DNA from: Mesoterricola silvestris
GTDB lineage: Bacteria; Acidobacteriota; Holophagae; Holophagales; Holophagaceae
NCBI RefSeq assembly: GCF_030295405.1
Contig: NZ_AP027080.1
Span: forward strand, 4,795,001-4,859,000
Direction: 5' to 3'
Length of the DNA stretch: 64,000 nucleotides
In this document: in pieces, positions 4,507 to 5,774 of the stretch
How the letters are laid out: each line of letters opens with the position of its first letter
Position numbering within the stretch: position 1 is the first letter of the stretch
The notes under the pieces: generated by a model
What the model saw: the letters and a program-made list of their open reading frames with translations, nothing else
What the model was told of the DNA's origin: nothing
Database searches by the model: none
Translations under genes and position numbers: made by a program

Positions 4507-5289
4507 ATGAACCAGGAAGATTTCATCATCACCTTCCCCAAGGCCCTCGCCGGCTTTCCGACCCTGACCGAATTCCGGGTCTTCGAGCCGGAAGGCACGT
4601 ACCCCCTGAAATTCATGCAGGCCGTGGCTTCGCCGGACATCTCGTTCGCTTGTATGGACGCCGCGACGGTGAAGCTGGACTACGACGTGCCCCTGTCCCC
4701 GGAGGAGGCCCAGGTCCTCGCCCTGGAGAAACCCGAGGATGCCCTGGTGCTCGTCATCGTGGTGGTGCCGGGGGAGGATCCCCGGCGCATGACGGCCAAC
4801 CTGGCGGGCCCCCTGGTCCTCAACACCCGCACCCGCACGGGCGTCCAGGTCCAGCTGGACACCCGGATCTTCCCCCTGCAATTCCCGGTGTTCCTGCCCC
4901 GTGGCGAGGGGGAGATCGGGTTCCCCGCCGGGCTCATCGGCTTCCCGGAACTCCGGCGCTTTGAACTGCTGGAGCCCTCCGACGCCTACCCCCTCAAATT
5001 CCTCCAACCCGTCGAGCGCGAGGATATTCATTTCGTGTGCATCGATGTGGCGGCCATCAAGGGGGATTACCAGGTGCCCCTTTCCGGCGAGGATGCCAGC
5101 GCCTTGGCCATCGAGGCCCCCTCCGAGGCCCTGGTGCTGGCCCTGGTGGTCATTCCCGAGGATCCCCGCCACATGACCGCCAACCTGGCCGGGCCCATCC
5201 TCATCAACCTGCGCACCCGGCAGGGACGCCAGGTGGTGCTCAATACCGAGCAGTTCCCCCTGAAGTTTCCCGTCATATCAGACAAGTAG
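4507..5289 (+). CDS. fliW: Tandem-domain flagellar assembly factor FliW (two FliW domains)
   Basis: FliW is an antagonist of the translational regulator CsrA and links it to flagellin homeostasis. Usual FliW is about 130-160 residues; this protein is 260 because it contains two complete FliW-like domains (about 1-128 and 129-260). Matching blocks include YPLKFMQAV and YPLKFLQPV, MTANLAGPLVLN and MTANLAGPILIN, and FPLQFPV and FPLKFPV. csrA starts 14 bp downstream, so binding partner and regulator are co-transcribed. I chose the ATG at 4507; the in-frame upstream stretch is a shadow of the RNase D gene. The fusion is direct observation; its effect on CsrA binding is unknown. Confidence 0.93.
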   Translation: MNQEDFIITFPKALAGFPTLTEFRVFEPEGTYPLKFMQAVASPDISFACMDAATVKLDYDVPLSPEEAQVLALEKPEDALVLVIVVVPGEDPRRMTANLAGPLVLNTRTRTGVQVQLDTRIFPLQFPVFLPRGEGEIGFPAGLIGFPELRRFELLEPSDAYPLKFLQPVEREDIHFVCIDVAAIKGDYQVPLSGEDASALAIEAPSEALVLALVVIPEDPRHMTANLAGPILINLRTRQGRQVVLNTEQFPLKFPVISDK

Positions 5290-5303: not shown

Positions 5304-5573
5304 ATGCTTGTCATCACCCGGAAGCTGGATCAATCACTAATTATCAATGGAAATATCGAAGTCCTGGTCGTGGGCGTGAGCAAGGACGGGGTCCGCCTGG
5401 GCATCAAGGCCCCCAAGGAAGTCCAGGTGCACCGCCGCGAGGTTTTCGATGCCATTGCCGAGGTGAACCGGGCGGCGACCGCCCAGGGCCGGGGCCGGGA
5501 TCTCACCCTCCAGGACGCCGCCGCCCTCCTGCGGGCAAGGTTGCCTAAAGTCAAACCGGCGAAGGACCGATAA
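5304..5573 (+). CDS. csrA: Translational regulator CsrA
   Basis: RNA-binding post-transcriptional regulator. The start MLVITRKLDQSLIINGNIEV and the central GVRLGIKAPKEVQVHRREVF are textbook CsrA, with the RNA-contact arginine in the VHRREV strand. At 89 residues it is longer than the 61-residue enterobacterial form; the extra C-terminal 25 residues are basic. It follows fliW by 14 bp and precedes two small motility-linked genes, so the four probably form one operon under joint control of motility. Confidence 0.97.
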   Translation: MLVITRKLDQSLIINGNIEVLVVGVSKDGVRLGIKAPKEVQVHRREVFDAIAEVNRAATAQGRGRDLTLQDAAALLRARLPKVKPAKDR

Positions 5574-5594: not shown

Positions 5595-5774
5595 GTGGAC
5601 GTGAGTCTTTCCGTGGACAGCTTGATGAGCCAGCAGGCGAGCATGACGCAGGCGGCCCTGGGCGTCGGGGTGGAGCGCAAGGTCCTGGACATGGCCCAGG
5701 CGGAGGGCGCCGCCCTGGTCCGCCTCATCGATTCCGCCGGAGGCCTGGGCGGAAACATCAACACCTACGCCTAA
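5595..5774 (+). CDS. YjfB-like small motility-associated protein
   Basis: A 59-residue protein translated from a GTG start that follows the ribosome site AGGAG by about 8 bases. It has the features of the YjfB family: an N-terminal alternating hydrophobic/polar helix (DVSLSVDSLMSQQ), a middle QAALGVGVERKVLDMAQ segment and the C-terminal GLGGNINTYA end. Relatives are encoded near flagellar and csrA loci and are called putative motility proteins; no biochemical role is known. Its place directly after csrA fits that. It is easily missed because of its short length and GTG start. Confidence 0.8.
   Translation: MDVSLSVDSLMSQQASMTQAALGVGVERKVLDMAQAEGAALVRLIDSAGGLGGNINTYA

Follow-up and report, generated by a model that had tools for sequence, protein, structure and literature searches.

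A single open reading frame of Mesoterricola silvestris encodes one chain that contains two complete FliW domains placed head to tail, an arrangement that is conserved across one bacterial family, the Holophagaceae (Acidobacteriota), and is, as far as we found, undescribed in the literature searched. FliW is a small antagonist of the RNA-binding regulator CsrA; by shutting CsrA down, it enables cells to sense flagellin. The tandem FliW is a clade-specific variant of this known family, built from a known domain and located in its usual neighbourhood. We regard the chances as evenly balanced that the protein is a genuine FliW, duplicated, fused and retained, that functions as a covalent pseudo-dimer in the usual partner switch, with the engagement of separate partners by its two units being favoured.

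The fliW gene and its neighbours lie within the 64,000-nucleotide stretch of DNA that was analysed (the window), in which the following features were located.

4507..5289, + strand: fliW, two FliW domains in one chain (ATG start, TAG stop, 260 aa; from Pfam matches).
4507..4893, + strand: FliW domain 1, residues 1-129 (PF02623, 103.4 bits; column comparison).
4600-4626 and 4795-4812, + strand: domain-1 motifs YPLKFMQAV (residues 32-40) and ANLAGP, respectively.
4894..4920, + strand: linker, residues 130-138, 9 residues from PLQFPVF (the last domain-1 motif) to the first FP of domain 2.
4921..5286, + strand: FliW domain 2, residues 139-260 (PF02623, 112.9 bits, match at 137-256; column comparison).
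4987-5013 and 5179-5196, + strand: domain-2 motifs YPLKFLQPV (residues 161-169) and ANLAGP, respectively.
5304..5573, + strand: csrA, 89 aa, with Asn55 and a C-terminal extension; the genome's sole CsrA.
5595..5774, + strand: YjfB-like putative motility protein, 59 aa (PF14070, 25.7 bits, just below the cut-off of 27).

A sequence-only reading of this DNA had proposed that two complete FliW domains are fused next to csrA and that they carry parallel motifs, and each of these points was borne out. Both domains score above the curated PF02623 cut-off of 25 bits within the single 260-residue frame, and the matches cover model positions 1-121 and 1-122 of 122, so that both are full-length. YPLKFMQAV and YPLKFLQPV are present, one per domain, and csrA starts 14 nt downstream of the fliW stop codon. 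The genome, a single contig of 4.99 Mb, contains exactly these two matches to PF02623, which are adjacent and in the same frame with no internal stop. Domains 1 and 2 are 58% identical over 122 residues (E 5e-50), a level of divergence that rules out a recent duplication. The YjfB-like gene that follows csrA is probably the third gene of a fliW-csrA cluster. A gene of this type also adjoins fliW-csrA in many relatives, with single and double FliW alike.

FliW was found in 59 of the 93 genomes of the class, and 18 of the 59 encode two domains in one open frame. The survey of relatives that had been suggested separates two groups: in six Holophagaceae genera every or almost every member has a double, and FliW with one domain occurs in the sister genera g3, g5 and g6 and in another family of the same class. 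A sequencing error joining two genes, which the sequence-only reading had raised as an alternative, is ruled out, as is an assembly fusion, because the two-domain frame is present in 18 separately assembled genomes from the six genera; 14 of these recur in a second collection. Among 48 further FliW-bearing Acidobacteriota genomes no fused tandem FliW was found; one of the 48, G150, carries two separate fliW genes that are not fused. The G150 genes (L066 and L067) are long-branched.

When 84,980 species genomes were scanned for an NLAGP-type motif, which limits the reach to FliWs that carry it, 14 doubles were returned. Thirteen have the record labels Holophagaceae, Holophagales, Holophaga or Acidobacteria, and the remaining one, labelled Deltaproteobacteria, appears to correspond to the Holophagaceae genome G068. 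Extra FliW matches are rare in two other phyla, where about 9 of 610 FliW-bearing genomes have more than one, fused or separate, among the matches listed; for two of these nine (G572 and G1014) the open frame around the listed match is too short. Neither a double FliW nor relatives of it were found in the viral contigs searched, a two-domain FliW model was not found in NCBIfam, and no paper on a tandem FliW was found in the searchable literature, which is thin on subscription papers. A Bacillota FliW of 217 aa (L105:3956-4606) gives a split profile match (19.6 + 87.8 bits) and perhaps contains an insert or an extra part.

An rpoB tree and a FliW domain tree, the latter with too few columns to fix the order of fusion and loss, are compatible with a single duplication and in-frame fusion of fliW in a Holophagaceae ancestor, followed by a loss of domain 1 in G069. 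In an AU test, a clade containing all double-domain copies together with the G069 FliW was not rejected (p 0.40), although the clade is not thereby proven. G069 is nested among the doubles in the rpoB tree; its single FliW is closest to domain 2 and has the Ala before NLAGP that is typical of the doubles. Judged from these features, G069 looks like a case in which domain 1 has been lost and a copy resembling domain 2 retained. The G069 protein (L041) has an N-terminal extension, MSSAPSPKEFVIASEEAGFKA.

Both the Ala before NLAGP and the loss of Pro52 are common to the two domains, in contrast to most single-domain relatives, which fits changes that preceded the duplication. One single-domain FliW from g5 has already lost Pro52 and retains Thr before NLAGP. 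Because several flagellated relatives have a single FliW domain and G069 has given up domain 1, doubling is not essential, which weighs against the covalent pseudo-dimer. The ancestral, indispensable function probably resides in domain 2; domain 1 is probably an added, somewhat freer unit.

The 260-residue protein retains, in each of its domains, the residues that are conserved family-wide (P33, L37, Q38, P52, Y59, T96, N98, L99, P102, N106 and Q114 in domain-1 numbering), with the exception of Pro52 and of a conservative Met at position 37 in domain 1. Pro52 is replaced by Ala in domain 1 and by Val in domain 2; this residue is invariant in the compared FliWs from outside the Holophagaceae, and its replacement in both domains counts against the covalent pseudo-dimer. 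Columns conserved in single-domain relatives are nearly all kept in both domains, and dN/dS is 0.07-0.31 in both (nine pairs with measurable dS; ceiling about 0.32). These values, which lie well below 1, together with the retained columns, give no support to the earlier suggestion that one domain is degenerate. In 10 of 10 pairs, which are partly non-independent, dN is higher for domain 1 than for domain 2. By these sequence-based measures both domains are under purifying selection, with domain 1 appearing somewhat relaxed. The domains also differ consistently from one another: domain 1 is marked by Met50 and Asp118 (or Glu), domain 2 by Arg241 and Lys253. In domain 1 of genus g11 (L047-L050), Tyr59 is replaced by Phe and Thr96 by Val; in the same genus csrA is on another contig than the two-domain fliW, or was not found, so the two genes may not be linked.

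FliW, CsrA and flagellin co-occur across genomes. The M. silvestris genome contains two full flagellin genes and a third match that is probably FlgL-type. The two full genes each carry ACGGAG in the ribosome-binding region, and this sequence includes the CsrA core ANGGA. Ribosome-binding sites commonly include GGA, so the ANGGA match is weak, and ACGGAG is at best a weak candidate for a CsrA signal. CsrA is encoded by one copy per genome, and its Asn55 is invariant in all Holophagaceae members aligned; work on B. subtilis, C. jejuni and Geobacter has shown that CsrA needs this residue in order to bind FliW (PMC7829508, PMC13407953).

Fourteen genomes have a linker of exactly 9 residues between the domains, and in the four from g11 it is exactly 5 residues long. 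Its sequence varies freely; a fixed length combined with a free sequence suggests a fixed domain arrangement. An AF2 model built with 15 double-domain sequences has a pLDDT of 85 and a pTM of 0.56. Adding single-domain sequences gave a pLDDT of 84.5 and a pTM of 0.53, and the orientation was no better. The high pLDDT and low pTM mean that each domain is well predicted and that the mutual orientation is not confident. Both models match the solved FliWs 2aj7, 5dmd, 5dmb and 5jak (Z 17-20.5, 132-136 residues), and in both the match spans model residues 91/92-260, which take in domain 2 as well as the end of domain 1. Beta-propeller matches from Foldseek and VIA were weak and were attributed to chance. 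The N-terminal beta-strand of canonical FliW (xTKxFGxIEI-like, before the first FP-G motif) is absent in Holophagaceae FliWs, single and double. Examples of FliWs lacking this strand are L020, L024, L051, L052 and window 4507-4540. The models offer the lead that the missing N-terminal strand may be substituted in domain 2 by the end of domain 1.

In the usual partner switch, in which the tandem chain would take part, unbound FliW attaches to CsrA and so lifts its repression of flagellin mRNA, and freshly synthesised flagellin captures FliW from CsrA. The tandem chain would contribute two FliW faces, close together, from one translation event. Rather than clamping one CsrA dimer, these faces would more likely engage separate partners, either two CsrA dimers or a CsrA together with a flagellin; the short linker of constant length and the reported location of the FliW sites on opposite sides of the CsrA dimer favour this. 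We tentatively entertain, with less confidence than the pseudo-dimer role in general, the specific possibility that the two FliWs form a rigid, covalently joined pair, which would either link two CsrA dimers to each other or keep CsrA and flagellin bound at the same time.

The sequence-only reading had also suggested that one chain could clamp both sides of a CsrA dimer, thereby filling its two FliW sites. There is room for two FliWs on a CsrA dimer (PMC7829508, PMC6529632), and both domains look competent as judged from their conserved columns. According to PMC7829508, however, the dimer has these sites on opposite sides, and the 9- or 5-residue linkers found in all 18 genomes reach at most about 38 or 23 Å between flanking residues. 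In B. subtilis, moreover, about one FliW per CsrA dimer is present and is already inhibitory (PMC6529632), and we consider an intramolecular clamp distinctly improbable. A division of labour, in which one domain serves CsrA and the other flagellin so that both partners are held at once, is a more plausible though still doubtful alternative. It would account for the consistent residue differences between the domains, for the faster evolution of domain 1 and for the loss of domain 1 alone in G069, but neither domain has clearly lost one face, nearly all conserved columns being kept in both.

Domain 1 might also be mainly structural, replacing the missing N-terminal beta-strand and stabilising domain 2 without a partner of its own. 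The absence of that strand from Holophagaceae FliWs and the alignment of solved FliWs from residues 91/92 onwards in the two AF2 models are in keeping with such a role. Conservation nevertheless extends over the whole of domain 1, including motifs beyond its last strands, single-domain relatives exist without the strand, and the inter-domain confidence of both models is low, which leaves this explanation rather unlikely. That each domain monitors one of two flagellins would suit a genome with two full flagellin genes and a third, probably FlgL-type, match. Single-FliW relatives in another family, however, have 4-6 flagellin-type genes, and the single- and double-FliW genera of Holophagaceae are similar in flagellin numbers; we give this idea very little credence.

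From the alternatives considered, we infer that a covalent pseudo-dimer acting on separate partners best describes the tandem FliW. The FliW-CsrA-flagellin circuit has been described as relying on a ratio near 1:1:1 (FliW : CsrA dimer : flagellin), and a two-unit chain alters this arithmetic. If the pair does bridge two CsrA dimers or hold CsrA and flagellin together, flagellin sensing would be cooperative or ternary, as opposed to the one-to-one exclusive exchange in B. subtilis. The tandem FliW also constitutes a natural bivalent reagent for distinguishing one from two FliWs per CsrA dimer and for probing the joint holding of CsrA and flagellin.

The tandem protein shares its domain family, fold and csrA neighbour with the single-domain FliW of Bacillus, Geobacillus and Campylobacter (PF02623; 5DMB, 5DMD, 5JAK, 2AJ7), as well as a CsrA with Asn55 and a C-terminal extension. 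It differs from these proteins in having two domains, in lacking the canonical N-terminal strand and in the replacement of Pro52 in both domains. The FliWs of the sister genera g3, g5 and g6 have about 53-66% identity to the tandem's domains; they consist of the same kind of minimal domain, likewise lacking the N-terminal strand, and share the fliW-csrA order and, in many cases, the YjfB-like gene. Unlike the tandem, they consist of one domain, have Thr before NLAGP and in most cases keep Pro52 (Val in g5). Helicobacter has two separate fliW genes. Like G150, it therefore also has two FliW domains per genome, but these reside in separate chains, whereas the tandem FliW joins them in one.
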